From Ideonella azotifigens (GTDB taxonomy: Bacteria > Pseudomonadota > Gammaproteobacteria > Burkholderiales > Burkholderiaceae_C): a stretch of 40,719 nucleotides of DNA. Positions 7,506 to 40,628 of the stretch are shown here, in pieces. Where the stretch lies: assembly GCF_006519715.1 (NCBI RefSeq), contig NZ_VIDT01000002.1:1-40719 (forward strand). The letters run 5' to 3'. Both the position numbers and the translations under genes were made by a program. How positions within the stretch are numbered: position 1 is the first letter of the stretch; every line of letters begins with the position of its first letter. The notes under the pieces were generated by a model that was not told the origin of the DNA, did no database searches, and was given only the letters and a program-made list of their open reading frames with translations.

Positions 7506-7570
7506 AATGAGGCGATCTCATTTACGATCTCCCACTACCGCCTGCCTTCCACAACGCACACAACGTAAAC

Positions 7571-13655: not shown

Positions 13656-16600
13656 ATGGCCACCACTGTTCCGACCCTGACCACTGATCAGATCGCAGCT
13701 CTCTCGACCGCTGCCGTCGCCGCGCTGACCACCGAAGACTGGGCCGCGTTCAGCAATGCGCAGATCCAGGCCCTGGGCACCGCGCAGGCCGCCGCCATCT
13801 CCAGCAGCGGCATTGCCGCCATGAGCGGCAGCCAGCTCGCCGCCTTCGGCACGGCAGATTTCTCGATGCTGAAGACCGCCGCCATCAAGGCGCTGACGGA
13901 CGCGCAGCTCGCCGCCCTGACGACCGACCAGTTCGTCGCCATGTCCACCGGCCAGGTGGCCGTGCTGACCAGCTCGCAGATCGCCGGCCTGGCCACGAAC
14001 CAGCTTGACTCGCTGAGCACCGGCCAGTTCGCCGCCATGACCAGCCTGCAGGTCGCCTCCATGACCGCCACCCAGGTGGCCGCGCTGGAAAGCGTGGACG
14101 TGGCTGCGCTGAGCACCGCCGCGATCAAGGGCATGACGGCCGACGCCGTCACCGCGCTGACCAGCACCCAGGCTGCCGCGCTGACCAGCGCGCAAGTCGC
14201 CTCGCTGAGCAGCACCCAGATCGCCGCGATGGACGTGGTGGACCTGCAGCAGCTGAGCGCCGACAAGATCCGCGCCATCGGCACCGCCGCCATCAAGGGC
14301 CTCAGCGCTGACCAGGTCGGTGGCCTGACCAGCGTCCAGGCCGCCGCGCTGGGCACCGCCCAGCTGGCCGCCATCGGCTCTGACCAGCTGAGCTCGCTGA
14401 GCACCGCCAACGTTGCTGCCCTGAGCTCGACCCAGATCGGCGCGCTGAGCAGCGCGCAAGTCGCCGCGATGAGCAATGCGCAAGTCGCCGCCATCGAAAC
14501 CGCTGACGTCGTCGCGCTGGGCACGGCCGCCGTCAAGGCCTTGAACGCCGACCAGCTCGGCGCCATGACCACCGCGCAGTACGCCGCGCTGAGCACCGCC
14601 CAGACGGCAGCGCTGAGCACCACCCAGCTGCAAAGCCTCTCCACCGACCACCTGAACGCACTGGGCACCGCCCAGTTCGCCGCCATGAGCAGCGCCCAGG
14701 TGGCTTCGCTGTCGGCCGACCAGGTCGCCAAGCTCGAAACCGCCGACGTCGCTGCGCTGAGCACCGCCGCCGTCAAGACCCTGGGCGCCGATGCGCTGGG
14801 CGCATTGACCACCGCGCAAGTGGTGGCCATGAGCTCGGCCCAGCTGGCCCAGCTCGCCAGCAACCAGCTCGCCGCGATGAGCAGCGCCGCCATTGGCGCC
14901 ATCGAAACCGCCGACATGGCCGCCATCAGCGTCACCGTGCTGAAGGGCCTGTCGGCCGACCAAGTCGGTGCGCTGAAGACCGCCCAGATCGCCGCCTTGA
15001 GCACCGCCCAGGTCGCCGCCTTGAGCGCTGACCAGGTCTCCGGCCTGAACACCGCCAACATCGCCGCACTGAGCTCCACCCAGGTCGGCACGCTGACCTC
15101 GGCCCAGCTCGGCGCGCTGAGCAGCACCCAGCTGGCCGCGATTGACACTGCCGACATCGGCGCCATCAGCACCGCGGTGCTGAAGACCCTGTCGGCCGAC
15201 CAGTTCGCCACGCTGGGCACCGCCCAGCTGGCCGCGCTGAGCACCGCGCAAGTCGCCTCGCTGAGCGCCAACCAGCTGGCCGCGCTGGACACCGCCCACC
15301 TGGACGCGCTGACCACGGTTCAATACGCCGCGATGGGCAGCGCCCAGGTGGCCGCCATCACCGCCACCCAGGCCGCCAAGCTCGAAACCGCCGACCTGGC
15401 CGCGATCAACACCGCCGCCATCAAGGGCCTGAGCGTTGACGCCATCGGCGCGCTGACCACCGACCAGGTCAAGTACATGACTTCCGCCCAGGTGGCACAG
15501 CTGTCCAGCACCCAGCTGGGCGCGCTGACCGCAGGCGACGTGGGCGTGCTGAGCACCGCTGACATCACCGCCATCAGCACCGCCGCGATGAAGGGCCTGT
15601 CGGCCGACCAGATCGGCGGCCTGAACTCCCAGCAAGCCGCTGCGCTGAGCACCGCGCAAGTCGCGGCTTTGAGCAACGACCAGATCGCCGGCCTGTCGAC
15701 CGCCAACATCGCCGCCCTGGGTTCCAACCAGATCGGCACGCTGAGCAGCGGCCAGTTGGCTGCGCTGAGCAGCACGCAGCTGGGCGCCATCGAGACGGCC
15801 GACATCAAGGCCATCTCCACCGCCGCGCTGAAGGCCTTGAGCCCGGACGTGCTGGGCAGCATGACTTCCGGCCAGCTGGCCGCGCTGACCACCGCGCAAG
15901 TCGCGGTGCTGAGCAACCAGCAGCTCTCCGGCCTGGCCACCGACGACCTGAACGCGCTGACCACGCTGCAGTTCTCCTCGCTGAGCAGCGGCCAGGTGGC
16001 CGCCTTGTCGGCTGACCAGGTGGCCAAGCTGGAGACGGCCGACGTGGCCGCCCTCGGCACCGCCGCGCTGAAGGGCCTGGGCAACGACGCGATGAACGCG
16101 CTGACCGCAGCGCAAGTCACGGCCATGGGCTCGGCCCAGCTGGCTGCGCTGAGCAGCGGCCAACTGGCGCAGATGAGCACCGCCGCTGTCGCCGCAATCG
16201 AGACCTCCGACCTGAAGAACATGGGCACGGCCACGCTGGCCGGCCTGACGGCTGACCAGCTGTCGCACCTGACGACCGCCCAGGTCGCCGCGCTGACCGC
16301 CGGCCAGATCGGCGCCCTGAAGGCCGAGCAGGTCGCCAACCTGACCGCAGGTGACGTGACCGCGCTGAGCTCCACGCAAGTGGGTGCGCTGACCAGCGCC
16401 CAGCTGGGCGCGATGAGCACCGCGCAGCTGGTGGCCATCGACTCGGCCGACATGAAGGCCCTCTCGACCGCCGCGCTGAAGGGCCTGAGCGCTGACCAGA
16501 TCGCCTCGCTGACCACCGCGCAACTGGCCGCGATGAGCACTGCCCAGAGCGCCGCCCTGGGCAGCGCCCAGCTCGGCAGCCTGAGCAGCGACAACCTGAA

Positions 16601-19600
16601 CTCGTTGAGCACCTCGACCTTCGCCAACCTGACCAGCGCGCAAGTCGCCGGCCTCACGGTCAGCCAGGTCGCCAACCTCGCGACCAAAGACCTCGCCGCC
16701 ATCGGCACCGCTGCGCTGAAGGGCCTGAGCAACGACGACATGGCTGCGCTGACCACCGGTCAGGTGGCTGCCATGACCAGCAACCAGATCGCCGCGCTGA
16801 GCACCGGCCAGCTGGCTGCGCTGAACACGGCCGACATTGCGGCCATCGAGACCATCGACATCAAGGCGCTGGCCACCGGCGCCCTGGCCGGCCTCACGGC
16901 AGACCAGGTCGGCGCGCTGACCGGCGCGCAAGTGGGTGTGCTGAGCACCAACCAGATCGCCGCGCTGACACCCGGCCAGATGTCCGGCATGAGCACCGCC
17001 GGCGTGGTTGGCCTGACTTCGGCGCAAGTCGCCGTGCTGACGACCGCGCAAGTCGCCGCGATGGGCACGGCCCAGGTGGCCGCCATCGAGAGCGGTGACC
17101 TGAAGGCCTTGTCCACCGCCGCCATCAAGGTGATGAGCGTCGACCAGGTCAGCCACCTCACCAGCGGCCAGCTCGGCGCGCTGACGACCGACCAGGTCGC
17201 CGTGCTGAGCGCCGACCAGCTCGGCTCGCTGGGCTCCACCGCGCTGAACGCGATGGGCACCAGCCAGTTCGCCACCCTCACCAGCGCCCAGGTCGCAGGC
17301 CTCACCGCCGCGCAAGTGGCCAAGCTGGAAACGGCCGACCTGGCCGCACTGAACACCACCGCGCTGAAGGGCCTGAGCGCTGACGGCATGGCCGGCCTGT
17401 CGACCGCCCAGGTCGCCGGCCTGACCAGCACCCAGGTGGGCGCGCTCAGCAGCACCCAGCTGGCCGCGCTGACGCCCGCCAACATCGCGATCATCGAAAC
17501 CGTCGACATCAAGGCCCTGAGCACCGCCGCCCTGGCCGGCCTCAGCTCGGCCCAGGTCGATGCGCTGACTTCCACCCAGCTGGCCGTGCTGAGCTCGGCC
17601 CAGATCGCCGCGCTGACGGTGGACCCGTCCTCGCTGGGCGGCCTGTCGACCGCCGACATCGTGGCCATGACCTCGACCCAGGTCGGTGGCCTGACCTCGG
17701 CCCAGGTGGCCGCGATGAGCACCGCCCAGCTGGCGGCCATCGAGACCGCCGACATCAAGGCCCTCTCGACCGCCGCGCTGCACGCGCTCAGCGCCGACCA
17801 GCTGAACAACCTGACCACCGCGCAGATGGCCGCGCTGAGCTCCGGCCAGATTGCCGGCTTCAGCAACGACCAGCTGGCCGCCCTGTCCACCGCCAACCTG
17901 AACGCGCTGGGCACCGCCCAGTTCGCTGCGCTGACCAGCGCCCAGGTGGGCGCGCTGACGGCCGCGCAAGTCGCCAAGCTGGAGACCGCCGACCTGGCGG
18001 CCATCGGCACGGCTGCGCTGAAGGGCCTGAACATTGACGACATGGCTGCGCTGACGACCGCACAGGTCGCCGGCCTGACCAGCACGCAAGTCGCGGCGCT
18101 GAGCAGCGGCCAGGTCAACGCACTGACCACCGCTGACGTGGCAGCCATCGAAACCGTGGACCTGAAGGCGATGGGCTCGGCCCAGCTGAAGGGCTTCTCG
18201 GCTGACCAGATCGCTGCGCTAACCAGCACCCAGGTGGGCGCCCTGGCCACCAGCCAGCTGACCGCGCTGAGCTCCGACCAGGTCGCAGGCCTGTCGGCCG
18301 CCAGCCTGGCCGGGCTGACCTCCACGCAGGCTGCTGCGCTCTCCGGCGCGCAACTGGCCGCGATGAGCTCGACCCAGCTCGACGCGATCCCGACCGGCGA
18401 CATGAAGTCGCTGAGCACCGCTGCGCTGAAGGCACTGAGCGCCGACCAGGTCGGCTCGCTGACGACGGCCCAGCTGGCCGCGCTGAGCACCGACCAGATC
18501 GCCGTGCTGGGCACCGCCGCACTGGCAGGCTTGTCGACGAGCAACCTCGACGCGATGAGCACCGCGCAGTTCGCCACGCTGAACAGCGCCCAGATCGCTG
18601 CGCTGACGCCTGACCAGGTGGCCAAGCTGAGCACGGCCGACCTGGCGGCGATCAACACCGCCGCCATCAAGGGCCTGAGCGCCGACGGCATGGCCTCGCT
18701 GAGCTCCACGCAAGTGGCGGCCATGACGTCCAACCAAGTGGGCTCGCTGAGCAGCACCCAGGTGGGCGCGCTGACGAACGCCGCCATCGCCGGCATCGAA
18801 ACCGTGGACATCAAGAACCTGTCGACCGCCGCACTGAAGGGCCTCACGGCCACTCAGGCTGGCGCGCTGACGGGTGCCCAGGCCACCGCGCTGGGCACCG
18901 CCCAGGTCGCCGCGCTGAGCAGCGACCAGGTCGCCGGCCTGTCCACCGCCGCCGTGGTCGGCCTGACCTCGGCCCAGTTCAACACCCTGGGCAGCGCCCA
19001 GCTGGGTGCGATGAGCACCGCGCAGCTGGCCGCCATCGAAACGGCCGACATCAAGGGCCTTGCCACTGCCGCGCTGAAGGGCCTGAGCGCTGACCAGCTC
19101 AACAGCTTCGGCACCGGCCAACTGGCCGTGCTGACGACCGACCAGGTCGGCGCGTTGACCACCGCCCAGCTGAGCGGCCTGAACAGCACCCACCTGAACG
19201 CGCTGAGCACCGCCCAGTTCGCTGCGATGAGCAGCGCCCAGGTGGCGGGCCTCTCGGCCGACCAGGTCGCGAAGATGGAGTCCGCTGACCTCGCGGCCCT
19301 GAACACCGCTGCACTGAAGGGCCTGAGCAACGACGCGATGGCCGCGCTGACCACCGCCGAAGTGGCCGGCCTGAGCTCCAACCAGGTCAGCGCACTGGGC
19401 AGCGGCCAAGTGGCTGCACTGACCACCGCCGGCATCGCCGCCATCGAAACGGTTGACCTGAAGGCGCTGGGCACCGCGGCGCTGAAGGGCCTGTCGGCCG
19501 ACCAGATGGGCGCGCTGACCAGCGTGCAGGTCGCCGCCTTGACCACCGGCCAGCTGGCCGCGCTGGGCAGCGACCAGGTCGCTGGCCTGTCGGCCGCCGG

Positions 19601-22600
19601 CATCGCTGGCCTCACCTCGACCCAAGCCGCGGCGCTGACCGGCTCGCAACTGGCCGCGATGAACAGCGCCCAGCTGGACGCCATCGCCACCGGCGACATC
19701 AAGTCCATCACCACCGCTGCACTGCATGCGCTGAGCGCCGACCAGGTGGCCACGCTGACGACGGCCCAGCTGGCTGCCCTGAGCACCGACCAGATCGCCT
19801 CGATGGGCTCGGCCGCACTGGCCAACCTGTCCACCGCCAGTCTCAACGCACTGGGCAGCAGCCAGTTCGCGGTGCTGACCAGTGCCCAGGTCGCCGCGAT
19901 GACGGCCGACCAAGTCGCCAAGCTCACCACCGGTGACCTGGCCTCGATCAACTCGGCCGCCATCAAGGGCCTGAGCGCGGACGGCGTGGCCGCACTGAGC
20001 ACCGACCAGGTTGTGGCCCTGACCTCCGGCCAGATGGGCGCGCTGGGCAGCAGCCAACTGGCCGCGATGACGACCGCCGGCATCCGCGCGATCGAGACCG
20101 TGGACCTGAAGAACCTTTCCACCGCTGCGCTGAAGGGCCTGTCGGCCGACCAGGTGGGCGCACTGACGGGGGCACAAGCCACCGCGATGACGACCGCCCA
20201 AGTGGCCGCGCTGAGCGCTGACCAGGTCTCCGGCCTGGGCACCGCCGCAGTCGTGGGCCTGACCTCGGCCCAGATCAACACGCTGGGCAGTGCCCAGCTG
20301 GCTGCGATGAGCACCGCGCAACTGGCGGCCATCGAAACCGGCGACATGAAGGGCATTTCCACCGCTGCGCTGAAGGCCTTGAACGCCGACCAGCTCGGCG
20401 GCCTGGGCACCGCCCAGATGGCTGCGCTGTCGACCGACCAGGTCGCCGCGCTGACGACCGCCCAGCTGAACGGCCTGAGCTCGACCAACCTGAACGCCCT
20501 GACCAGCGCGCAATTCGCCACGCTGAGCAGCGCCCAGGTGGCCGCGCTGACGCCGGACCAGGTGGCCAAGATGGAGAGCGCTGACCTCGCCGCCCTCAGC
20601 ACCGCCGCACTGAAGGGCCTGAGCGCTGACGCGATGGCCGTGCTGACCACGGCCGAAGTCGCCGGCCTGACCTCCAACCAGGTCGCCGCACTGAGCACCG
20701 CCCAGGTGGCGGCGCTGACGACGGCTGACGTGGCGGTCATCGAGACGGTGGACATCAAGGCCCTGAGCACCGGCGCCTTTGCCGCGCTGAGCGCCGAACA
20801 GGTCGGCGCGCTGACGGCTGGCCAGATCGGTGCGCTGAGCACCGGCCAGATCGCCGCCATCGGTGCCAACCAGTTCGCTGGCATGAGCACCGCCGGCATC
20901 GTCGGCCTGAGTTCCAACCAGGTTGCCGCGCTGTCCACCGCGCAAGTCGCGGCGCTGAGCACCGCGCAGCTGGCCGCCATTGAATCGGGCGACATCAAGG
21001 CCCTGTCCACCGGCGCGCTGAAGGCGCTGAGCGTGGACCAGTTCGGCGCCTTGACCAGCACCCAGCTGGGCGCGCTGACCTCCGCGCAAACCGCAGTGCT
21101 GAGCTCTGACCAGCTCGGCGTGCTGGGCACGGCCGCGCTGAACGCGATTGGCAGCGCACAGTTCGCTGGCATGACCAGCGCCCAGGTGGCCGGGCTGACC
21201 GCCGGCCAGGTCGCCAAGATGGAGACCGCCGACCTTGCCGCCATCGGCACCGCCGCCCTGAAGGGCCTGGGTGTGGACCAGATGGCCGTGCTGACGACTG
21301 CGCAAGTGGCAGGCCTGGGCTCGGCGCAAGTGGCCGCGCTGAGCAGCGCCCAGATCGGCGCCTTGAGCACCGCCAACATTGCCGCCATCGAGACGGTGGA
21401 CCTGAAGGCGATGAGCACCGCCGCACTGGCCGGCCTGAGCTCGGCGCAAGTGGACGCGCTGACCTCCTCGCAGCTGGCCGTGCTGAGCTCCGCCCAGATC
21501 GCCGCGCTGCCGTTCGACCCGGTGGCCTCGCTGGCCGGCCTGAGCACGACCGACATCGTCAACCTGACCTCGACTCAAGTGGGCGCGCTGACCTCCGGCC
21601 AGATCGCCTCGCTGACCAGCACCCAGCTGGACGCCATCGAGACGGCCGACATCAAGGCCTTGTCCACCGCCGTGCTGCGCGCCATGAGCGCTGACCAGCT
21701 GAACACGCTGACGACGGCACAGATGGCCGCGTTGACGACCACCCAGGTTGGCGCGCTGAGCACCGACCAACTGGCCAACCTGAGCTCGACCAACCTCAAC
21801 GCGCTGACCACCGCGGACTTCGCGAACATGGGCAGCGCCCAGATCGCCGCGCTGTCTGGCGACCAGATCGCCAAGCTGGAGACGGCCGACCTGGCCGCGC
21901 TGAGCACCGCCGCGCTGAAGGGCCTGGTTGCAGACGACATCAACCAGCTGTCCACCGCGCAAGTGGCCGGCCTGACGAGCACGCAAGTGGGCGCGCTGAG
22001 CTCGGCCCAGCTGAGCGGCCTGACGACGGCCGCCGTGGCCGCCATCGAGACCGTGGACATCAAGGCGCTGAGCACCGGCGCACTGGCCGGCCTGTCGGCT
22101 GACCAGGTCGGTGCCCTGACGGCGGCGCAAGTCGGCGTGATGGCCACCGAGCAGGTGGCGGCGCTGTCGCCCAGCGTGTTCGCCGGCCTGAGCACGGCCG
22201 CCATCGTCGGCCTGACCTCGAACCAGGTCGGCGCGCTGAGCACCGCGCAAGTCACAGCGCTGAGCAACGCCCAGCTGGCCGCGATTGAAACCGCGGACCT
22301 GAAGGCCATGTCCACCGCCGCGGTCAAGGCCCTGACGGCCGACCAGTTCGGCAACCTGACCAGCAGCCAGCTGGCCGCGCTGACGACCGCCCAGGTCGCC
22401 GTGCTGGGCACTGCCCAGCTGTCCAACCTGAGCAGCACCAACCTCAACGCGATGGGCACCGCCCAGTTCGCCGCCATGGGCAGCGCCCAGGTGGCCGGGC
22501 TGACGGGTGACCAGGTCGCCAAGATGGAGTCCCAGGACCTGGCCGCGCTGAGCACCGCCGCGATGAAGGGCCTGTCGGCCGACGCGATGGCCATGCTGGG

Positions 22601-25600
22601 CACGACGCAGGTCGCAGGCCTCAGCTCGCTGCAGGTCTCGGCGCTGACCAGCACCCAGCTGGGCGCGCTGACCACCGCCGGCATCGCCGCGATGGAAACG
22701 GTTGACGTCAAGCAGCTCAGCACCGCCGCGCTGGATGGCCTGTCGGCCGACCAGGTCGGTGCGCTGACCGCGGGCCAGATGGCCGCGCTGAGCACCGCCC
22801 AGATCGCCTCGCTGGGCAGCAGCCAGCTGGCCGGCCTGAGCACCGCGGCCGTGGCCGGCATGAGCTCGGCCCAGATCGGCACGCTGAGCAGCACCCAGAT
22901 CGCCAGTCTGGGCACCGCCCAGATCGCCGCGATCGAAACCGCCGACATCAAGGCCCTGGGCACTGCCGCACTGCATTCGCTGAACGTTGACCAGATCGGC
23001 GCGATGACCAGCGGCCAGTTCGCTGCGCTGACGACCGACCAGGCCACCGCGCTGACCTCCGAGCAGCTCAATGTGCTCGGCACCGCGGTGCTGAACGCCC
23101 TGGGCAGCGCGCAGTTCGCCGCGATGAACAGCGCGCAGATCAGCGGCCTGACCGCCGCGCAAGTGGCCAAGATGGATACTGCCGACGTGGCCGCCATCAG
23201 CACCGCTGCGCTGAAGGGCCTGGGCGTTGACGGGATGGCCGCGCTGACCTCCGACCAGGTCGTCGCGCTGAACACCGCGCAAGTCGGCTCGCTGAGCAGC
23301 GTGCAGCTGGCAGCGCTGACGACCGGCGACGTGGCCGCCATCGAGACCGTGGACCTGAAGGCCATCGGCACCGCAGCATTGCGCGGTCTGACGGCTGACC
23401 AGATCGGCGGCCTGACGGCCGGCCAGGTCGGCGCGATGACCACCGCGCAGATCAACTCGCTGACCGCCGACCAGGTGGCCGGCATGACCACCGCTGCGGT
23501 GCATGGCCTGACCTCCACCCAGCTGGGCGTGCTGACCAGCGACCAGATCGCCGCGATGAGCTCGGCACAGCTGGCCGCGATGGACACCAGCGACATGAAG
23601 TCGCTGAGCACCGCCGCGCTGCATGCGATGTCGCCGGACCAGATCGCCCAGTTCTCGACCTCGCAGATGGCCAGCCTGAGCACGGCGCAAGCCGCGGCGC
23701 TGACCTCCGACCAACTCGCCGCCCTCGGCACCGCCAACCTGAACGCGCTGGGCACGGGGCAGTTCGCTGCACTGAACAGCGCCCAGGTGTCGGCACTGAC
23801 CGGCGCGCAAGTGGCCAAGATGGAGACCGCCGACCTGGCGGCCCTGTCGACCGCAGCGGTCAAGGGCCTGAGCGCTGACGCAATGGCCGCACTGACCACC
23901 GACCAGACCGTGGCGCTGACCAGCGCCCAAGTCTCGGCACTGGGCAGCGCGCAGATCGCCGCCATCACCACGGCCGACATCGCCAAGATGGAAGCGGTGG
24001 ACTTCAAGGCCATCGGCACCGCCGCGATGGCCGGGCTGACCCCTGAACAGGTCGGCGCGCTGACGACCGCCCAGGTCGCCGGCATGACGACCGACCAGGT
24101 CAAGGCACTGAGCGCCGACCAACTGGCCGGCCTGACGACGGCCAACCTGGCCGTCCTCGGCTCGGCCCAGTTCAACGCCATCCCGACCGCCCAGCTCGTC
24201 ACGCTGACGACTGCGCAAATCGCCGCGATCACCACCGCCGACGTGAAGGCCATGACCACCGCCGCGGTGCATGCGCTGGACCCGTCGCAAGTGGCCGCCA
24301 TGACCACCGCGCAGATCGACGCGATCACCACGGCGCAAGCCGCGGCGCTGACCGCCGACCAGCTGAGCGGCCTGGCCACGGCCAAGCTGAACGCCTTGGG
24401 CTCGGCCCAGTTCGGCGCGCTCAACAGCGACCAGGTGGCTGCCCTGTCGGCTGCCCAGGTCGGCAAGCTTGAAACGGCTGACCTGGCCGCGCTGAGCACC
24501 ACCGCACTGAAGGGCCTGACCGACGTGAGCTTCGCCGCGATGAGCAGCGACCAGATCGTCGGCCTGAGCTCCATCCAGGTGGCTTCGCTGAGCAGCACCC
24601 AGCTGGGTGGCATCACCAGCGCCGCGATCGCGAAGATGGAAATCGTCGACGTCAAGGCCCTGAGCACTGCCGCGATGGCCGGCCTGCTGGCCGCCCAGGT
24701 CGGCGCACTGAGCTCCGACCAGGTCGCCGCGCTGAGCACGGCCCAGGTGCATGCCCTGAGCGTGGACCAGTTCGCCGGCCTGAGCACCGCCGGTGTGGCC
24801 TCGCTGACCTCGGCCCAGGCTGCGGTGTTGACCAGCGACCAGATCGACGCGCTGGGCACCGCACAGCTGCTCGCGCTGAGCACCAACGCCATCAAGACCC
24901 TGACCACGGCCGCGCTGACCGCGCTGGTGGCTGGCGACGTGGGCGCCCTGTCCACCGACCAGGTGCAGGCGCTGACGACCGCCCAGCTGCACAGCATGGG
25001 CAGCGACCAGGTCGCCGGCCTGACGACCGCCGGTGTCGTGGCCCTGACGTCCGCGCAAGTGGGCGCCATGACCTCGGATCAGCTCAACGGGCTGTCCACC
25101 ACCCAGCTGACCAAGCTGGAAGTGGGTGACATCAAGGCGATTGCCACCGAAGCCATCGCCGGCCTCGCCGTGGCCTCGGTTGCCGCACTGACGACAGACC
25201 AGGTCGTCGGCCTGAGCACCCAGCAAGCCTACGCGCTGACCAGCGACCAACTCGGCGGCATGACCTCGACCCAGCTGGGCGCGATCGAAACCGCCGATGT
25301 CAAGGCACTCAGCGTGGGCGCACTGGCAGGGCTCAGCTCGGCCGACGTGGCCGCACTGGGCGCCACCCAGGTCGCCGCGATGACCACCGCGCAGATCCAC
25401 GCACTGACCAGCGACCAGGTCCCTGGCCTGAGCACCGCCGCCCTGGTGGCCATGACCTCCAGCCAGTTCGCCGCGATGACCAGCGAGCAGCTGAACGCGT
25501 TGACCAGCACCCAGATCAGCAAGATCGAGGCAGCGGACATCAAGTCCATCGCCACCGACGCGCTGCACGGCCTGGGCAGCACCGCGATCAGCGGCCTGAC

Positions 25601-27527
25601 GACCGACCAGATCGTCGCCATCAGCACGGTGCAGGCAGCAGCGCTGACCAGCGACCAGCTGGGCGTGATGAGCTCGGTGCAGCTGGCTGCCATCGAATCG
25701 GCCGACTTCAAGGCCATCGATGCAGGCGCACTGGCAGGCCTCAGCTCCGCTGACCTGTCGGCCCTGACGGCCGGCCAGGTCGGCGCGATGACCACCACGC
25801 AGATCGACGCCATCGGCACCGCGCAGATTGCCGGCCTGAGCAGCGACGCGATCATTGCGCTCACGTCGACCCAGATCGCCGTGCTGAGCAGCGACCAGGT
25901 CAACGCGATGAGCACCGCGCAGATCGCCAAGATCGAGCTGGGCGACATCAAGGCCCTGAGCGCCGACACGCTCAACGGCCTGGACGCCACCCACCTGCAT
26001 GCACTGACGACCGACCAGATCGTCGCCCTGAGCACCACCCAGGCCGCCGCGCTGACCAGCACCCAGCTGCATGCGATGAGCTCGGACCAACTGGCCGCCA
26101 TTGAAACGGTGGACCTGAAGGCCATGGTCGGTGGTTCGCTGGACGGCCTCAGCTCGGCCGACGTGGCTGCCCTGGGCACCCACGTTGCCGCACTGAGCAC
26201 GGCACAGTTCGCCGGTCTGGATGCGACCCAGATCGCCGGCCTGACGACGGACGCCGTCATCGCCCTGAACACCGCTCAGCTCAACACGCTGGACGCCGCC
26301 CACCTCAACGCCCTGAGCACCGCTCAGCTGGCCGCGATCGAAGCCGGTGACATGCGCGGCCTGTCGCTGGACGCCATCGGTGCGCTGACCTCGGGGGATC
26401 TCGCCTCGCTGAGCAACGCCCAGATCACCGGCATGACCTCGACGCAGATCCAACACCTGGATGCGACGCAGATCGCCGGCTTCACCAGCAGCCAGATCGC
26501 GGCCATCGACGTTGCGGACCTGAAGACGCTGGACGCCACCACGCTGGACGGCCTCAGCTCGACCCAGGTGGCAGGCTTCAACGCGGCGCAGATTGCCGGT
26601 CTCACGACCGACCAGTTTGTCTCGCTGTCTGCCGCCCAGATCGCCGGCCTGACGACGGACCAGGCGCAGTCCCTGACCAACGCCCAGATCCATGCGATGA
26701 CTTCCGACCAGATCTCCGGTCTGTCCTCGGCGGACATCGCGGCGATGAGCGCCAGCCAGGCCTCGGCCTTCACCCAGGCGACCAAGGACGCCATGGACGC
26801 CGGCCAGACCACCGCACTGGCCTCGACCCCGATCGTCTTTGACCTGAACGGCGACGGCGTGCACACCACCGCGGCTGCCAACGGTGTCAACTTCGACCTG
26901 GACGCGACCGGCACCGCGCACAAGGTCGGCTGGGTGGATTCCACCGACGGCCTGCTGGCCATGGACCGCAACGGGGACGGCACCATCAACAATGGCTCCG
27001 AACTCTTCGGCTCGGCCACGCAGACGGCCACCGGCAAGGCCACCGACGGCTTCGCCGCCATGAGCTCGATGGACAGCAACAGCGACGGCCTGCTGAACGC
27101 GTCGGACATCAACTTCGACAAGCTCAAGCTGTGGGTCGACGCCAACCACGACGGCGTGAGCGAAGCGGGTGAACTGAAGAGCCTGTCCGACTACGGCATC
27201 GTCTCGATCAACCTGCACGCCCAAACCGGCACGGTGACCGACAACGGCAACTTCCTCGGCCTGACCTCCAGCTACACCACCACCGACGGCAGCAAGCACG
27301 ACGTGGCGGACGTCTGGTTCAACAAGGACAACGGCAAGAGCACCACGGGCACGGCGTCCACCACGCCGACCCTGAACGACCTGCTCGCGTCCCCGGCCGA
27401 TGCACTGCCCGGCGGTGTCGGCGACGCTGGCACCAGCCACGCCGCCACCACCAACGTGGCCGCCAGCGTCCTGCACCACAAGTCGCTGGAAGACGAACTG
27501 CGCGCCAACAGCACCCCGCTGATCTAA
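13656..27527 (+). CDS. Giant octapeptide-repeat protein with C-terminal calcium-binding domain
   Basis: This 4623-aa protein has a good ribosome-binding site (AAAGGA, 8 nt) and no signal peptide. Residues 8 to about 4388 are almost uninterrupted octads of consensus L-[ST]-[TSA]-[AD]-Q-[VIL]-[AG]-[AG], about 547 copies. Three-octad anchors of the type (I/L)ETxDxKA, LSTAALKG, LSADQVGA recur in a 10+10+7 rhythm, giving a 216-aa super-repeat. The last about 235 residues are non-repetitive. They carry acidic DxNxDG loops at DLNGDGVHT, DRNGDGTIN, DSNSDGLLN and DANHDGVSE, a domain usual in secreted RTX-type and adhesin-like giants. Export by a type I system is plausible but no transporter is in the window. 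Ser/Thr occur about twice per octad. The S/T-x-x-[DQE] pattern would suit capped short helices, though a beta-solenoid is not excluded. The upstream glycosyltransferase and GSCFA genes suggest modification. A function as a surface or extracellular structural protein is inferred. Confidence 0.85.
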   Translation: MATTVPTLTTDQIAALSTAAVAALTTEDWAAFSNAQIQALGTAQAAAISSSGIAAMSGSQLAAFGTADFSMLKTAAIKALTDAQLAALTTDQFVAMSTGQVAVLTSSQIAGLATNQLDSLSTGQFAAMTSLQVASMTATQVAALESVDVAALSTAAIKGMTADAVTALTSTQAAALTSAQVASLSSTQIAAMDVVDLQQLSADKIRAIGTAAIKGLSADQVGGLTSVQAAALGTAQLAAIGSDQLSSLSTANVAALSSTQIGALSSAQVAAMSNAQVAAIETADVVALGTAAVKALNADQLGAMTTAQYAALSTAQTAALSTTQLQSLSTDHLNALGTAQFAAMSSAQVASLSADQVAKLETADVAALSTAAVKTLGADALGALTTAQVVAMSSAQLAQLASNQLAAMSSAAIGAIETADMAAISVTVLKGLSADQVGALKTAQIAALSTAQVAALSADQVSGLNTANIAALSSTQVGTLTSAQLGALSSTQLAAIDTADIGAISTAVLKTLSADQFATLGTAQLAALSTAQVASLSANQLAALDTAHLDALTTVQYAAMGSAQVAAITATQAAKLETADLAAINTAAIKGLSVDAIGALTTDQVKYMTSAQVAQLSSTQLGALTAGDVGVLSTADITAISTAAMKGLSADQIGGLNSQQAAALSTAQVAALSNDQIAGLSTANIAALGSNQIGTLSSGQLAALSSTQLGAIETADIKAISTAALKALSPDVLGSMTSGQLAALTTAQVAVLSNQQLSGLATDDLNALTTLQFSSLSSGQVAALSADQVAKLETADVAALGTAALKGLGNDAMNALTAAQVTAMGSAQLAALSSGQLAQMSTAAVAAIETSDLKNMGTATLAGLTADQLSHLTTAQVAALTAGQIGALKAEQVANLTAGDVTALSSTQVGALTSAQLGAMSTAQLVAIDSADMKALSTAALKGLSADQIASLTTAQLAAMSTAQSAALGSAQLGSLSSDNLNSLSTSTFANLTSAQVAGLTVSQVANLATKDLAAIGTAALKGLSNDDMAALTTGQVAAMTSNQIAALSTGQLAALNTADIAAIETIDIKALATGALAGLTADQVGALTGAQVGVLSTNQIAALTPGQMSGMSTAGVVGLTSAQVAVLTTAQVAAMGTAQVAAIESGDLKALSTAAIKVMSVDQVSHLTSGQLGALTTDQVAVLSADQLGSLGSTALNAMGTSQFATLTSAQVAGLTAAQVAKLETADLAALNTTALKGLSADGMAGLSTAQVAGLTSTQVGALSSTQLAALTPANIAIIETVDIKALSTAALAGLSSAQVDALTSTQLAVLSSAQIAALTVDPSSLGGLSTADIVAMTSTQVGGLTSAQVAAMSTAQLAAIETADIKALSTAALHALSADQLNNLTTAQMAALSSGQIAGFSNDQLAALSTANLNALGTAQFAALTSAQVGALTAAQVAKLETADLAAIGTAALKGLNIDDMAALTTAQVAGLTSTQVAALSSGQVNALTTADVAAIETVDLKAMGSAQLKGFSADQIAALTSTQVGALATSQLTALSSDQVAGLSAASLAGLTSTQAAALSGAQLAAMSSTQLDAIPTGDMKSLSTAALKALSADQVGSLTTAQLAALSTDQIAVLGTAALAGLSTSNLDAMSTAQFATLNSAQIAALTPDQVAKLSTADLAAINTAAIKGLSADGMASLSSTQVAAMTSNQVGSLSSTQVGALTNAAIAGIETVDIKNLSTAALKGLTATQAGALTGAQATALGTAQVAALSSDQVAGLSTAAVVGLTSAQFNTLGSAQLGAMSTAQLAAIETADIKGLATAALKGLSADQLNSFGTGQLAVLTTDQVGALTTAQLSGLNSTHLNALSTAQFAAMSSAQVAGLSADQVAKMESADLAALNTAALKGLSNDAMAALTTAEVAGLSSNQVSALGSGQVAALTTAGIAAIETVDLKALGTAALKGLSADQMGALTSVQVAALTTGQLAALGSDQVAGLSAAGIAGLTSTQAAALTGSQLAAMNSAQLDAIATGDIKSITTAALHALSADQVATLTTAQLAALSTDQIASMGSAALANLSTASLNALGSSQFAVLTSAQVAAMTADQVAKLTTGDLASINSAAIKGLSADGVAALSTDQVVALTSGQMGALGSSQLAAMTTAGIRAIETVDLKNLSTAALKGLSADQVGALTGAQATAMTTAQVAALSADQVSGLGTAAVVGLTSAQINTLGSAQLAAMSTAQLAAIETGDMKGISTAALKALNADQLGGLGTAQMAALSTDQVAALTTAQLNGLSSTNLNALTSAQFATLSSAQVAALTPDQVAKMESADLAALSTAALKGLSADAMAVLTTAEVAGLTSNQVAALSTAQVAALTTADVAVIETVDIKALSTGAFAALSAEQVGALTAGQIGALSTGQIAAIGANQFAGMSTAGIVGLSSNQVAALSTAQVAALSTAQLAAIESGDIKALSTGALKALSVDQFGALTSTQLGALTSAQTAVLSSDQLGVLGTAALNAIGSAQFAGMTSAQVAGLTAGQVAKMETADLAAIGTAALKGLGVDQMAVLTTAQVAGLGSAQVAALSSAQIGALSTANIAAIETVDLKAMSTAALAGLSSAQVDALTSSQLAVLSSAQIAALPFDPVASLAGLSTTDIVNLTSTQVGALTSGQIASLTSTQLDAIETADIKALSTAVLRAMSADQLNTLTTAQMAALTTTQVGALSTDQLANLSSTNLNALTTADFANMGSAQIAALSGDQIAKLETADLAALSTAALKGLVADDINQLSTAQVAGLTSTQVGALSSAQLSGLTTAAVAAIETVDIKALSTGALAGLSADQVGALTAAQVGVMATEQVAALSPSVFAGLSTAAIVGLTSNQVGALSTAQVTALSNAQLAAIETADLKAMSTAAVKALTADQFGNLTSSQLAALTTAQVAVLGTAQLSNLSSTNLNAMGTAQFAAMGSAQVAGLTGDQVAKMESQDLAALSTAAMKGLSADAMAMLGTTQVAGLSSLQVSALTSTQLGALTTAGIAAMETVDVKQLSTAALDGLSADQVGALTAGQMAALSTAQIASLGSSQLAGLSTAAVAGMSSAQIGTLSSTQIASLGTAQIAAIETADIKALGTAALHSLNVDQIGAMTSGQFAALTTDQATALTSEQLNVLGTAVLNALGSAQFAAMNSAQISGLTAAQVAKMDTADVAAISTAALKGLGVDGMAALTSDQVVALNTAQVGSLSSVQLAALTTGDVAAIETVDLKAIGTAALRGLTADQIGGLTAGQVGAMTTAQINSLTADQVAGMTTAAVHGLTSTQLGVLTSDQIAAMSSAQLAAMDTSDMKSLSTAALHAMSPDQIAQFSTSQMASLSTAQAAALTSDQLAALGTANLNALGTGQFAALNSAQVSALTGAQVAKMETADLAALSTAAVKGLSADAMAALTTDQTVALTSAQVSALGSAQIAAITTADIAKMEAVDFKAIGTAAMAGLTPEQVGALTTAQVAGMTTDQVKALSADQLAGLTTANLAVLGSAQFNAIPTAQLVTLTTAQIAAITTADVKAMTTAAVHALDPSQVAAMTTAQIDAITTAQAAALTADQLSGLATAKLNALGSAQFGALNSDQVAALSAAQVGKLETADLAALSTTALKGLTDVSFAAMSSDQIVGLSSIQVASLSSTQLGGITSAAIAKMEIVDVKALSTAAMAGLLAAQVGALSSDQVAALSTAQVHALSVDQFAGLSTAGVASLTSAQAAVLTSDQIDALGTAQLLALSTNAIKTLTTAALTALVAGDVGALSTDQVQALTTAQLHSMGSDQVAGLTTAGVVALTSAQVGAMTSDQLNGLSTTQLTKLEVGDIKAIATEAIAGLAVASVAALTTDQVVGLSTQQAYALTSDQLGGMTSTQLGAIETADVKALSVGALAGLSSADVAALGATQVAAMTTAQIHALTSDQVPGLSTAALVAMTSSQFAAMTSEQLNALTSTQISKIEAADIKSIATDALHGLGSTAISGLTTDQIVAISTVQAAALTSDQLGVMSSVQLAAIESADFKAIDAGALAGLSSADLSALTAGQVGAMTTTQIDAIGTAQIAGLSSDAIIALTSTQIAVLSSDQVNAMSTAQIAKIELGDIKALSADTLNGLDATHLHALTTDQIVALSTTQAAALTSTQLHAMSSDQLAAIETVDLKAMVGGSLDGLSSADVAALGTHVAALSTAQFAGLDATQIAGLTTDAVIALNTAQLNTLDAAHLNALSTAQLAAIEAGDMRGLSLDAIGALTSGDLASLSNAQITGMTSTQIQHLDATQIAGFTSSQIAAIDVADLKTLDATTLDGLSSTQVAGFNAAQIAGLTTDQFVSLSAAQIAGLTTDQAQSLTNAQIHAMTSDQISGLSSADIAAMSASQASAFTQATKDAMDAGQTTALASTPIVFDLNGDGVHTTAAANGVNFDLDATGTAHKVGWVDSTDGLLAMDRNGDGTINNGSELFGSATQTATGKATDGFAAMSSMDSNSDGLLNASDINFDKLKLWVDANHDGVSEAGELKSLSDYGIVSINLHAQTGTVTDNGNFLGLTSSYTTTDGSKHDVADVWFNKDNGKSTTGTASTTPTLNDLLASPADALPGGVGDAGTSHAATTNVAASVLHHKSLEDELRANSTPLI
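17613..17642 (+). other. Octad-breaking insertion 1 (decapeptide with Asp-Pro)
   Basis: Instead of an octad, ten residues LTVDPSSLGG are encoded, adding 6 bp to this super-repeat. It follows LTSTQLAVLSSAQIAA. Asp-Pro occurs at only a few sites in the whole array. A matching insertion lies 3894 bp downstream. Confidence 0.85.
21507..21539 (+). other. Octad-breaking insertion 2 (undecapeptide with Asp-Pro)
   Basis: Eleven residues LPFDPVASLAG replace an octad, adding 9 bp. The preceding octads LTSSQLAVLSSAQIAA match those before insertion 1 almost exactly, and the position is six super-repeats later. The two insertions are therefore probably copies of one ancestral loop. Confidence 0.85.
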
Positions 27528-27825: not shown

Positions 27826-29304
27826 ATGCACGCAGCAGCTCAGAAACGCGTTGTTGGCGCAATCATCGGTTCGGCCTTGTCTGGCTGTGCATTTGTTCAG
27901 GTTCCTTCCGTCAGCCCACACACGCGCTACGACAACGCCTTGCGGCAGGCGGTTGCGTTCGAAGGTGCGGCGGAAGCAAAGATGTCGCTGGCCGACCGGA
28001 TGGCACGCTGGAAGGTGTCGGGGGTGAGTGTCGCCATCATCGACGACTGCCGCATCGTTGAAATCAAAGGCTTCGGGGTCGCTGGTGCAAACGGGCATGC
28101 AGTCAGTACACAAACCATATTCCAGGCAGCTTCCGTCACCAAACCCGTGGCGGCCTTCGCCGCATTGCGTTTGGTCGATAAAGGCGTCCTCTCGCTCGAC
28201 GAAAACGTGAATCTCCATCTGCAAGCGTGGAAGGTTCCGGACACCCCGCTGCTGGCTGGCCATCCAGTCACCCTGCGGAGCATCCTCAGTCACAGTGCCG
28301 GCCTCGTTCCCGGTGGCTATGGTGGCTATAAGAAGGGGTCACCGATGCCGACACTGCTCCAGACCCTGGACGGAATCGAACCGGCACGCCCCAAACCGGT
28401 CGAGGTTGCCTATACGCCAGGTTCCGAGTGGCGCTACGCTGGCGGCGGCTACCTTGTCGCACAGCTTCTCATGACAGAGAAGACGGGTAAGAGCTTCGAT
28501 AGCCTCATGCGAGACGAGGTGTTCGTGCCCACCGGCATGCACCACAGCGGCTTCGAGACTCCAGACGGGCAGGATGTGGCGGTCGGCCATGTCGCGGATG
28601 GATCGGAAGTCCCGGGGGGCTGGCACATCTATCCCGAGCTAGCGGCGGCAAGCCTGTGGACCACCGCGCCCGATCTCGCCCTGTTCGGCGTGGTGGCAAT
28701 GAAGGCCGCGCGCCATGACCGCCACGCTCTTCTATCGCCGGGGATTGCCGACCTGATGACGACGGCGCAGATCGGCTCACGCAGTCTCGGCTTTGTTGTC
28801 GGCGGCGAAGGCCAAAATCGCCATTTCGGACATGACGGCACGAACGTAGGGTACAACTCCTCACTGATCCTCTACCCCGCGACCTGCCAAGGGGCCGCGA
28901 TACTGACCAATTCCGACAATGCCAAACCCCTGATCGCCGAACTGCTGCGCGGGATCGCCGACGCGTATGGCTGGCCAGACGCCATGGCCACGCCGGTCGT
29001 GGTGCGCACAGAAATCACTGCCTCAGTTTCCGAGAGGTTTGTTGGGACCTATGCGTTCGCCGACATTCAGGGCGTCGATCCATTCAGGATCATTCACGGC
29101 CAGGCAGGCGAAGACCTGATCTTCGACCGCGGCGACGGCCACCGTGAACCTCTTTACGCCACGGCGGAAGGTCTGGTGGGCCCGGACAGCGGCATCACCA
29201 TCAAGGCGGTCACGACCGGAGAAGGCCCGGCTCGGACGATCACCTACACCCGCATCGGCAGGAGCGGTGGCGCGAAAGCGAACCGGCTTCCGACGCCGAA
29301 CTGA
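27826..29304 (+). CDS. Serine hydrolase lipoprotein (class C beta-lactamase/penicillin-binding fold)
   Basis: A short lipoprotein signal ends at the lipobox LSGC (Cys21). The beta-lactamase-type domain has the catalytic SVTK (Ser103, Lys106), TLRSILSHSAGL, and WRYAGGGY in place of the YxN motif. GHDGTNVGYNS lies near the HxG box. The last about 100 residues form a beta-rich C-terminal domain (FVGTYAF...). Such proteins are esterases, D-aminopeptidases or peptidases, and true beta-lactam hydrolysis is not implied. The 492-aa length is usual for the two-domain form. It has its own promoter after the giant-gene terminator. Confidence 0.85.
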   Translation: MHAAAQKRVVGAIIGSALSGCAFVQVPSVSPHTRYDNALRQAVAFEGAAEAKMSLADRMARWKVSGVSVAIIDDCRIVEIKGFGVAGANGHAVSTQTIFQAASVTKPVAAFAALRLVDKGVLSLDENVNLHLQAWKVPDTPLLAGHPVTLRSILSHSAGLVPGGYGGYKKGSPMPTLLQTLDGIEPARPKPVEVAYTPGSEWRYAGGGYLVAQLLMTEKTGKSFDSLMRDEVFVPTGMHHSGFETPDGQDVAVGHVADGSEVPGGWHIYPELAAASLWTTAPDLALFGVVAMKAARHDRHALLSPGIADLMTTAQIGSRSLGFVVGGEGQNRHFGHDGTNVGYNSSLILYPATCQGAAILTNSDNAKPLIAELLRGIADAYGWPDAMATPVVVRTEITASVSERFVGTYAFADIQGVDPFRIIHGQAGEDLIFDRGDGHREPLYATAEGLVGPDSGITIKAVTTGEGPARTITYTRIGRSGGAKANRLPTPN

Positions 29305-36582: not shown

Positions 36583-36670
36583 GTGAATGGCCGCCGTGTC
36601 GCACGCGCTGCCTCGCATGTCTTTCAGGAATGGCTTGATGAACCGTCGCACCACAACGGAGCCAGCAACG

Positions 36671-37846
36671 ATGAAGCCAGGTTGGCGGTGGATGGGGGCT
36701 TGTGCATGGGCTGCGGGGGCGATGCTGCTGGGCGCGTGCGCCGGCCCTCCGTCGGCTCCGCTGGCCAGCGCTTCGCTGGACGACGCGGTGCGCCAGTTGA
36801 TGCAGCGCGAGCAGGTCAAGGGCCTGGCACTGGCGGTGATCGAACACGGCCAGGTGGTCAAGGTGGCCGCCTACGGGCAGCGCAATGTGGCCAAGGCTTT
36901 GCCGCTCACGCCGGACACGGTGATGTATGGCGCCTCGCTGACCAAGGCGGCTTTCGGCTACATGGTGATGCAACTGGCGGACGAGGGCCGGCTGTCGCTG
37001 GACGCGCCGCTGGCGCAGCTGCTGCCGCAGCCCTTGCCGAAGTACGGCGATGCCAAGCGCGGTTACGCCGACCTGGCTGGCGACGAGCGCTGGCGCCAGC
37101 TCACGCCTCGCATGCTGCTCACGCACAGCAGCGGTTTTGCAAATTTCCGATGGGTCGAGGCGGACCAGCGGCTGCAGTTCCACTTCGATCCCGGCAGCCG
37201 CTATGCGTATTCCGGCGAAGGCATCAACCTGCTGCAGTTCGTGCTGGAAAAAGGCCTGGGCCTGGACGTGGGCCAGGAAATGCAGCGCCGCATCTTCGAC
37301 CGTTTCGGCATGACCCGCACCAGCATGCGTTGGCGGCCGGACTTTGCCAACAACCTGGCCGACGGCTACCAGCTGGACGGCAGCGAGCTGCCGCATGACG
37401 AGCGCAGCAATGTGCGCGCCGCCGGTTCGATGGACACGACGATTGCCGACCAGGCGCGCATGTGGGCCGGCTTCATGCGAGGCGACGGCCTGAGCCCGGC
37501 AGCGCGCGCCGAATGGATCAAAGGGCAGTTGCCCATCACCTCCGCGCACCAGTTCCCGACCTTCCTGCCACCCACCGAAACGCGCTACCAGGCCATCGGC
37601 CTCTCCGCTGCCTTGGGCGTCGTGCGCTTCGACGATGCCAGCGGCCCAGCCTGGCTCAAGGGCGGCCACGACGACGCCACCGGCAACATGGCCTTGTGCC
37701 TGGAAGCTGGCCAGCGCTGCATCGTGCTGCTGGCCAACGACGTGCGCGCCGAGCGGCTCTACCCGGCGCTGGCCGAGCGGGTGCTGGGCGCCACCCGCAT
37801 GCCGTGGCAGTGGGAATACGACTGGTGGCAGCCGCCTGCGCCTTGA
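36671..37846 (+). CDS. Serine hydrolase lipoprotein (beta-lactamase-related)
   Basis: The start is set at ATG 36671, because GGAG lies 9 nt upstream and the resulting N-terminus is a clean lipoprotein signal (MKPGWRWMG...LLGAC, Cys23). A longer frame to 36587 has no site. The domain has SLTK (Ser89, Lys92), PRMLLTHSSGFANFRW and YAYSGEGINLLQ in the YSG/YxN position. GGHDDATGNM follows as the HxG-like box. The 391 aa are one domain. It is a distant paralogue of the lipoprotein at 27826. Hydrolysis of a cell-wall or ester substrate in the periplasm is likely. Confidence 0.85.
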   Translation: MKPGWRWMGACAWAAGAMLLGACAGPPSAPLASASLDDAVRQLMQREQVKGLALAVIEHGQVVKVAAYGQRNVAKALPLTPDTVMYGASLTKAAFGYMVMQLADEGRLSLDAPLAQLLPQPLPKYGDAKRGYADLAGDERWRQLTPRMLLTHSSGFANFRWVEADQRLQFHFDPGSRYAYSGEGINLLQFVLEKGLGLDVGQEMQRRIFDRFGMTRTSMRWRPDFANNLADGYQLDGSELPHDERSNVRAAGSMDTTIADQARMWAGFMRGDGLSPAARAEWIKGQLPITSAHQFPTFLPPTETRYQAIGLSAALGVVRFDDASGPAWLKGGHDDATGNMALCLEAGQRCIVLLANDVRAERLYPALAERVLGATRMPWQWEYDWWQPPAP

Positions 37847-37939
37847 CGCGGGTACTCGGTTTGCCTGGCAGAAGCTGGTGCGAGGCTTGCGTGGCACTGT
37901 GCACCGTCGCAACTGCAACGGCGTTCAGCTTCGTCGGCA

Positions 37940-37967
37940 TTGAATCCATTCGCAACAATGGATTCAA
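37940..37967. promoter_or_regulatory. Perfect 11-bp inverted repeat upstream of mprF
   Basis: TTGAATCCATT (37940-37950) and AATGGATTCAA (37957-37967) are exact complements around a 6-nt centre. It lies 13-50 nt before the mprF start and 94 bp after the preceding stop. There is no T-tract, so a protein-binding operator for a dimeric regulator is more likely than a terminator. Confidence 0.6.
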
Positions 37968-37979
37968 AACCGACAGAAT

Positions 37980-40628
37980 GTGCCTGACCCGGCCACCCAG
38001 AAAGCAAGAAGACCTGTGTCCGTTCCCGAACCCCCGTTGATTGTGCAGCCCCGTTCGCCTGTGGCCAGGCTTGGTGAGTGGTGGCCCCGCCTGCGGCCCT
38101 GGCTGCTGGCCGCGTTGGGGCTGGTGCTGGCGGGCGCCGTGGGCTTCGCACTGCAGGGGCTGTTGCGCGAGGTGCGCTATGCCAGCGTGATGGCCGCCGT
38201 CTCGGCCACGCCCAACATCGACATCTTCGCCGCGCTGCTCGCCACCGCCGCCAGCTATCTTGCGCTGACCCAGTACGACGCCTCCGCGCTGCGATATGCC
38301 GGGGCCAAGGTGCCGCGCAGCACCGTGCTGCTGACTTCCTTCGTTGCTTATGCGCTGTCCAACACCATCGGCCTCGGACCTTTGTCGGGCGGTGCGGTGC
38401 GCATGCGGCTGTATGCCGCGGCGGGGCTGGAGCCGCCTCAGATCGCGCGGGTCATCGGCTTCAATGCAGCGGCCTTTGCGCTGGGCATGATGGTGTTCGG
38501 TGCCATGGGCCTGCTGTGGGGCGCGGCGGACGTCGCGCCGCTGCTGCACAGCCGGGCCTGGTGGCTGCGCGTGCTGGCGCTGGCCATGCTGCTGGCGCTT
38601 GCCGGCTTCCTGTGGCTGTGCAGCCGCCAGCACCTGCTGCAGGTGGGCCTGGGCCGCGGCCGGCGATGGACGCTGCGCCTGCCTACGCTGAACCTGGCGC
38701 TGCGCCAGCTGCTCATTTCCGCAGTGGAGCTGGCCGCTTCGGCCGCAGCGCTCTGGTTCCTGCTGCCGACCAACCACATCGGCCTGCCGACCTTCATCGC
38801 CTTCTATGCGATTGCCATCGCCGCCAGCATCATCAGCCACGTGCCGGGCGGCGTGGGCGTGTTCGAGGCGGTGATGCTGCTGGCCAGCGGCACCGGGGTG
38901 CCCAGTGACGCGATGCTGGGCGCGCTGCTGCTGAACCGCGGCATCTACTACGTGCTGCCGCTGCTGCTGGCCACCGGCACCCTGATCGCCTACGAGTTGC
39001 GCTCAGGCGTGGCCGCACCTGTGAGCCGCATGGCCGTGCACCTGAGCCCGCGCCTGATGGCGGCACTGACGATGGTCGCCGGCCTGTGGCTGCTGGTCTC
39101 CGGCGTCACCCCTTTCACCGAAGACGCGCGCGAGGTGCTGGCCACGCTGCGTGTGCCGCTGCCGCTGATCGAGGCCTCGCACTTTCTCGGCAGCGTGGCC
39201 GGCCTCGGGCTGCTGCTGGTGGCGCGCGGGCTGCTGCACCGGCTGGACGCGGCCTGGTGGGCGGCGCTGGGGCTGTCGATGGTGGCTGCGCTGCTGGCGC
39301 TGCCCAAGGGCATTGCGCTGAACGAGGCGGCCTTCCTCAGCATGCTGGTGCTGCTGCTGGTGATCTCGCGCAAGCAGTTCAACCGGCCGTCCTCGCTGTT
39401 CGCCCAGCGGCTGGAGCCGGAGTGGCTGCTGGCGCTGCTGGGCGTGGTGCTGGCCTGTGTGTGGGTGCTGTTTTTCGCCTACCAGGAAGTGGCCTACAGC
39501 AACCACCTGTGGTGGCAGTTCGAGCTGGACGGGCAGGCCCCGCGCTCGCTGCGCGCGCTGATGGGCGTGGCCTTGATGGCATTGGCGTTTTTCCTGTGGC
39601 AGCTGATGCGCCAGCCAGCCGGCGTGCTGAGCCGCACCACGCCCGAGCAGATCGCCCGCGCGGCGGCCATCATCCGCGCCAACCCCTCGTCCGACGGCTG
39701 CTACGCGCTGATCGGCGACAAGCAGCTGATGTTCTCGCCGTCCGGCAGGAGCTTCCTGATGTACGGCAAGCAGGCGCGCAGCTGGGTGTCCTTGTACGGC
39801 CCGTTTGGCGACAGCCGCGAGTGGGCCGACCTGGTGTGGCAGTTCATCGAGCTGGCCAACGCCCATGGCGGTCGTGCGGCCTTCTACCAGGTGCGGCCAG
39901 TGGCCCTGCCGCTGTACCTGGATTGCGGCCTGCAGGCGCTGAAGCTGGGCGAATATGCGCATGTGAACCTGCCTGACTTCAGCCTCAAGGGCGCCAAGCG
40001 CGCCAACCTGCGCTCCGGCGTGAACCGCGGCGAGCGTGAAGGCCTGAGCTTCGAGGTGCTGCCCCCGGCCCGCGTGGCCGAGTTGCTGCCGCAGCTGCGC
40101 GAGGTTTCGCAGGCCTGGCTCACGCACCAGCGCGGCCGTGAAAAAGGCTTTTCCGTTGGCCGCTTCGACGAGGCCTACCTGCAGCAGCTGCCGGTGGCCG
40201 TGGTCTGGCGCGAGGGCAAGGTCATCGCCTTTGCCAACCTGCTGAGCACCGCTGCGAAGCAGGAAGCCAGCGTGGACCTGATGCGCTACCTGCCCGGCGC
40301 CCCGCCCGGCACCATGGACTTCCTGTTCGCCAAGGTCATGCTGCACCTGCAGGCCGAGGGTTACCAGCGTTTCGGGCTGGGCATGTCGCCCATGGCGGGC
40401 ATGGCCGAGCGTCGCAAGGCGCCGCGCTGGCAGCAACTGGGCCGGCTGCTCTACAAATACGGGGACCGCTTCTACAACTTCCGCGGCCTGCACAGTTTCA
40501 AGGACAAGTTCGAGCCCGAATGGGAAGCCCGCTACCTGGCGGCACCCGGCGGGCTGGCGCCGTTTTTCGTGCTGGCCGACGTGGCCGCGCTGATTGGCGG
40601 TGGCATGAAAGGCGTGGTGACGAAGTGA
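37980..40628 (+). CDS. mprF: MprF: bifunctional phosphatidylglycerol lysyltransferase and flippase
   Basis: This 882-aa protein has an N-terminal flippase part with about 14 membrane helices (about residues 30-540), including the conserved SNTIGLGPLSGGAVRMRLY and HVPGGVGVFEAVML. A cytoplasmic DUF2156 aminoacyl-transferase domain (about 560-860) has RSFLMYGKQARSWVSLYGP, FYQVRPVALPLYLDCGL and FLFAKVMLHLQAEGY. It transfers lysine or alanine from tRNA to phosphatidylglycerol and flips the lipid, giving resistance to cationic peptides and acid. The start is uncertain: GTG 37980 is used, and GTG 38016 is equally possible. It is preceded by a striking operator-like palindrome and overlaps the next gene. 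Confidence 0.92.
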   Translation: MPDPATQKARRPVSVPEPPLIVQPRSPVARLGEWWPRLRPWLLAALGLVLAGAVGFALQGLLREVRYASVMAAVSATPNIDIFAALLATAASYLALTQYDASALRYAGAKVPRSTVLLTSFVAYALSNTIGLGPLSGGAVRMRLYAAAGLEPPQIARVIGFNAAAFALGMMVFGAMGLLWGAADVAPLLHSRAWWLRVLALAMLLALAGFLWLCSRQHLLQVGLGRGRRWTLRLPTLNLALRQLLISAVELAASAAALWFLLPTNHIGLPTFIAFYAIAIAASIISHVPGGVGVFEAVMLLASGTGVPSDAMLGALLLNRGIYYVLPLLLATGTLIAYELRSGVAAPVSRMAVHLSPRLMAALTMVAGLWLLVSGVTPFTEDAREVLATLRVPLPLIEASHFLGSVAGLGLLLVARGLLHRLDAAWWAALGLSMVAALLALPKGIALNEAAFLSMLVLLLVISRKQFNRPSSLFAQRLEPEWLLALLGVVLACVWVLFFAYQEVAYSNHLWWQFELDGQAPRSLRALMGVALMALAFFLWQLMRQPAGVLSRTTPEQIARAAAIIRANPSSDGCYALIGDKQLMFSPSGRSFLMYGKQARSWVSLYGPFGDSREWADLVWQFIELANAHGGRAAFYQVRPVALPLYLDCGLQALKLGEYAHVNLPDFSLKGAKRANLRSGVNRGEREGLSFEVLPPARVAELLPQLREVSQAWLTHQRGREKGFSVGRFDEAYLQQLPVAVVWREGKVIAFANLLSTAAKQEASVDLMRYLPGAPPGTMDFLFAKVMLHLQAEGYQRFGLGMSPMAGMAERRKAPRWQQLGRLLYKYGDRFYNFRGLHSFKDKFEPEWEARYLAAPGGLAPFFVLADVAALIGGGMKGVVTK

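Follow-up and report, generated by a model that had tools for sequence, protein, structure and literature searches.

An extended inverted repeat upstream of mprF in Ideonella azotifigens, at best an ordinary candidate for local control

Near the end of a stretch of 40,719 nucleotides from Ideonella azotifigens (contig NZ_VIDT01000002.1, positions 1 to 40,719, analysed as a whole and called here the window), an inverted repeat lies in the 169-bp intergenic gap between two genes of the + strand, the second of which is mprF. The features of the locus are the following:

36587..37846, + strand, upstream gene, a PF00144 beta-lactamase-fold serine hydrolase of 419 aa (Pfam)
37933..37974, no strand, extended dyad with 18-nt arms, 16/18 complementary, 42 nt in total
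37940..37967, no strand, perfect 11-6-11 dyad, TTGAATCCATT-CGCAAC-AATGGATTCAA
37940..37968, + strand, possible weak promoter within the dyad, TTGAAT - 17 nt - TTCAAA, 7/12 to the sigma-70 consensus by eye
38016..40628, + strand, mprF, aminoacyl-phosphatidylglycerol synthase/flippase (NF033480, E 1.2e-270; PF09924, E 3.2e-96)

The extended dyad begins 86 nt past the stop of the hydrolase gene. The longest mprF frame opens at GTG 37980, where no ribosome-binding site is evident. The likelier start is predicted to be GTG 38016, because it is preceded by AAGAAG (38006-38011) and because the 29 N-terminal residues counted from it align without gaps, 17 of them being identical, with those of the homologue at locus L042, where the stop of the preceding gene lies, by eye, 31 nt before the equivalent start. 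With translation beginning at GTG 38016, the dyad would be placed 41-48 nt upstream of the start codon. An earlier note, made from the sequence alone, had located a palindrome directly before a gene for membrane-charge modification; the NF033480 and PF09924 matches bear out the identity of this gene, and the start at GTG 38016 refines the distance. A second PF00144 serine hydrolase is encoded in the window at 27826-29304, and a + strand open frame of 4623 aa (13656-27527) is made throughout of repeated 24-nt (8-residue) units, one 72-nt family being found at 273 places with at least 60% identity. A Pfam scan of 22 window proteins recognised one transcription factor, of the LysR family, which is encoded at 339-1388 and thus 36 kb from the dyad. 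No regulator gene adjoins mprF in the visible DNA, which ends with the contig 91 bases after mprF, so that a regulator encoded downstream of it would go unseen.

The sequence of 37933-37974 reads GTCGG-CA-TTGAATCCATT-CGCAAC-AATGGATTCAA-AA-CCGAC, that is, an outer GTCGG/CCGAC stem and an inner 11-bp stem separated by a 2x2 mismatch. The exact palindrome at 37940-37967 was described in the earlier note as the longest in the intergenic DNA of the window; its positions and its 11-bp arms are correct, and the runners-up among gapped inverted repeats of the whole window (gap of at most 20) have arms of 9 bp, although the element is larger than had been stated. The dyad forms the AT-rich part of the gap, with 36% GC against 64% in the flank 37847-37932 (45% for the extended dyad), within a genome of 65% GC. 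As RNA, the 76 nt from 37915 to 37990 fold stably in both orientations, with z = -3.7 and -26.7 kcal/mol for the + strand and z = -4.6 and -33.9 kcal/mol for the - strand. When 40 copies of the window were simulated with a first-order Markov model, 20 of them contained perfect arms of 11 bp or longer (gap of at most 20; mean 0.6); hence the perfect arms alone are not beyond chance for 40 kb, and the feature as first described is not significant by itself. The extended dyad, unlike the bare arms, is rare by first-order chance, since dyads of at least 16/18 (gap 3-10) appeared in only 6 of 300 such copies. A second strong dyad of the window, at 7466-7507, pairs GTGCCTGATCCACA with TGTGCATCAGGCAC at 15/18 arm positions and lies about 64 nt before an open frame (7571-8281) that has no Pfam match.

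Further copies of the palindrome, as the members of a regulon would carry, had been suggested by the earlier note as one way to check a dedicated regulator. The draft genome (6.26 Mb in 1219 contigs, 95.9% complete) holds a single copy at up to 3 mismatches, for the 22-base as well as for the 18-base version, and exact inner arms with other spacings do not occur in it; thus no regulon is visible and the notion of one was rejected. A blastn search of 37900-38010 against the same genome gave, beyond the region itself, matches at E 0.09 or worse, so that a repeat of the REP or MITE type, which must be multi-copy, was discarded too. Weaker matches were surveyed in 971,286 bases of the genome, the window plus 60 stretches, amounting to about a sixth of it. 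Within 8/22 mismatches 40 places were counted, the dyad included, while 100 sets of shuffled arms gave a mean of 17.3 (sd 10.7); the best match besides the dyad has 6/22 mismatches, a value equalled or bettered by 22 of the 100 shuffled arms. This slight excess of very weak matches leans towards the view of the earlier note, and it is not counted as a regulon.

The same 971,286 bases served for a survey of other dyads. They contain 25 dyads of at least 15/18 (gap 3-12) and three of at least 16/18, the two besides the mprF dyad having 64-67% GC and lying between convergent genes as called by a rough GC-based gene caller. Fourteen of those reaching at least 15/18 fall outside called genes, and the mprF dyad is the only one listed among these between two + strand genes; eight of the 14 lie between convergent genes, a base rate that favours transcript ends. 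Perfect AT-rich dyads with arms of at least 9 bp number 20, of which five are in called genes, four carry A/T terminator tails, and 11 remain, the mprF dyad among them. One of the others (L112:7011) separates a TetR gene from a divergently oriented short-chain dehydrogenase gene, both Pfam-supported, and another (L148:15859) stands 111 nt before groES, also Pfam-supported; the latter we take to be the CIRCE element bound by HrcA. As both came out of the same scan, AT-rich dyads devoid of a T-run can be operators in this genome, although the class appears to be mixed. Another of the 11, at L146:11872, is flanked by what look like genes for a ribosomal protein and SecY, and an RNA hairpin would be as likely there as an operator. 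The perfect AT-rich dyad GATACTGTATGTTCATACAGTATC (L128:2962-2985), between convergent genes according to the rough caller, resembles a LexA box; CATATTTGCTGTGCAGCAAATATG at L115:3745-3768 is a further AT-rich perfect dyad.

The gene itself is patchily distributed, being present in 27 of 399 family genomes (E 1e-150) and in five of the 16 genomes of the genus, own genome included in both counts. The Ideonella MprF has more in common with homologues from other genera (78% identity for g85, 77% for g143) than with those of the four genus mates (72-73%), and the gene tree sets it apart from these mates with modest local supports of about 0.8; the tree and the identities hint that the gene was transferred horizontally or duplicated long ago. 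Conservation of the dyad was sought in relatives, its lack having been named in the earlier note as evidence against a regulator. Within 1 mismatch the 18-base version is absent from the 398 other family genomes; within 2 mismatches 16 of the 399 match, own genome included, the 15 others with one match apiece at 2/18. Upstream of mprF the dyad was found in none of 30 usable homologous loci (L003-L007, L042-L056, L058-L066 and L116), in which the best match has 9/22 mismatches; L057, whose contig stops just short of the aligned start, and L008-L011, which match part of MprF, were left out. Since the closest homologue compared has 78% protein identity, a site of recent origin would have escaped this comparison. 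The only exact match in genome contigs comes from a Victivallales MAG (L012), and it was taken as chance given its AT-rich setting beside an unrelated gene. In genus g143 (L044, L045, L116) a well-conserved block, ATACCATTT ... GTGAAAGTGGTAATGGTTTGTGC, in which incomplete inverted repeats unlike the Ideonella dyad in sequence occur, is located upstream of mprF, between it and a divergent gene that reads, by eye, like a chitinase. The block looks like a control region for the chitinase-like gene; for its different sequence and that neighbour it was rejected as an mprF operator.

Three explanations other than an operator have to be considered for the dyad. It may act as RNA, either as a 3'-end hairpin protecting the upstream transcript from exonucleases or as a stem in the mprF leader, a possible though doubtful reading. 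The stable + strand fold, the closeness to the upstream stop and the base rate of dyads in gaps between converging genes, the places at which transcripts should end, speak for such a hairpin, and a symmetry of 42 nt, which exceeds that of most operators, suits a hairpin equally well. The upper stem, however, is AT-rich, the - strand fold is the stabler of the two, which would be unexpected if RNA of the + strand had been selected, and the dyad does not follow the hydrolase gene in any of 11 loci that carry a homologue of that gene (L085-L095, best 9/22 mismatches). In a tblastn comparison with the mprF loci and their 1.5-kb flanks, the hydrolase accompanies mprF at the Ideonella locus only. 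Two classes of RNA element were rejected outright: an intrinsic terminator, as there is no T-run and no terminator-like site on either strand of 37700-38100, and a catalogued RNA or riboswitch, as 37600-38300 gave no Rfam match up to E = 1.

That the dyad is an intergenic sequence of no present function, having arisen by chance or by a mutational process such as quasi-palindrome template switching, seems somewhat unlikely. Half of the simulated windows have arms as long, conservation is absent in the loci examined, and the best palindrome of the window had been chosen by the earlier note, all of which would agree with this origin; it is harder to reconcile with the rarity of the extended dyad, with AT-rich symmetry in a GC-rich genome and with a position immediately ahead of a gene, intergenic gaps being few. 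Highly improbable, finally, is the core site of a tyrosine recombinase (Xer/dif-like) left behind where DNA was exchanged near mprF. The 11-6-11 layout resembles Xer/dif, and the patchy occurrence of mprF in the genus and its separation from the four genus mates in the tree would be consistent with such an exchange. Against it, a second copy is absent from the genome, viral contigs contain no exact match, and matches in phages and plasmids are short and weak. There was also no match to a dif-type consensus within 3/18 mismatches, and a dif site was rejected on this basis, although the search is a weak yardstick, as the rest of the draft gave no dif site either.

The operator reading is slightly favoured over both the RNA hairpin and the absence of function. 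In this tentative reading, for which the odds are judged to be less than even, the dyad would be a lineage-specific operator with a single target, overlapping a candidate mprF promoter. The dyad, the place where it lies, its occurring once in the draft and the mprF gene downstream are observed; the mechanism that we infer is repression. A regulator of the helix-turn-helix class, acting as a dimer and with its gene at some other place in the genome, would recognise the dyad and, as this possibly overlaps the mprF promoter (TTGAAT-17-TTCAAA), would block mprF transcription. A distance of 41-48 nt to the start codon GTG 38016 is a usual one for a repressor site and counts towards an operator; the low chance expectation of the extended dyad, its AT-richness against the flank and the weak excess of poor matches point in the same direction. 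On the other side stand the single copy, even if a single-target operator would need no further sites, the absence from the 30 loci and the lack of an adjacent regulator gene; moreover, the promoter scan of the mprF upstream region gave no sigma-70-like site, the TTGAAT-17-TTCAAA candidate scoring below its threshold.

The proposal of the earlier note, that a dedicated regulator controls aminoacyl-phosphatidylglycerol synthesis, thus stands in part: an operator is possible, as illustrated by the tailless AT-rich dyads beside the TetR gene and groES, and neither a regulon nor conservation accompanies it. The wider interpretation fails where it is testable, namely in copies and conservation, and the dyad would be at best an ordinary, candidate local control site. 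The stronger version is improbable; in it a dedicated regulator would have mprF as its only target, acting through an operator of its own that was taken on when the gene entered this lineage or changed its place, so that membrane-charge modification would be switched apart from any wider envelope-stress regulon. If the operator were real, it would suggest local rewiring of the control over membrane-charge modification among mprF-carrying lineages; as the evidence stands, the dyad is one of the 20 perfect AT-rich dyads counted in roughly one sixth of the genome.

The closest parallels are found in the same genome. The TetR-type and CIRCE-type dyads (L112:7011 and L148:15859) are, like the mprF dyad, perfect, AT-rich and free of a T-run. 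They differ from it in that the former has a regulator gene at its side and the latter belongs to a widely conserved sequence, neither of which holds for the mprF dyad. A literature search brought up no paper on an operator of mprF from this group of bacteria, and the dyad is not described in the available parts of PMC5936775, PMC3972451 and PMC7916210. According to those texts, lpiA of rhizobia is induced at low pH (PMC5936775, PMC3972451), and in Pseudomonas aeruginosa PhoP controls the alanyl-PG synthase operon PA0920-PA0919 through (G/A)TTCAG repeats (PMC7916210). The latter case resembles the present one in that a Gram-negative MprF-type gene is placed under a stress regulator, but its motif differs from the Ideonella dyad. 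In Staphylococcus aureus the palindrome ACAAA-TTTGT, located before mprF, is common to mprF, dlt, vraFG and 29 predicted targets of GraR, and mutations in the corresponding vraFG site showed that it matters (available text of PMC3128592). Hence a palindrome acting before mprF is already known in principle, and the likeness to GraR lies in a palindrome upstream of mprF; as far as the available text of PMC3128592 goes, the GraR site is unrelated in sequence and has many targets, whereas the Ideonella dyad is single, with no regulon and no known regulator.
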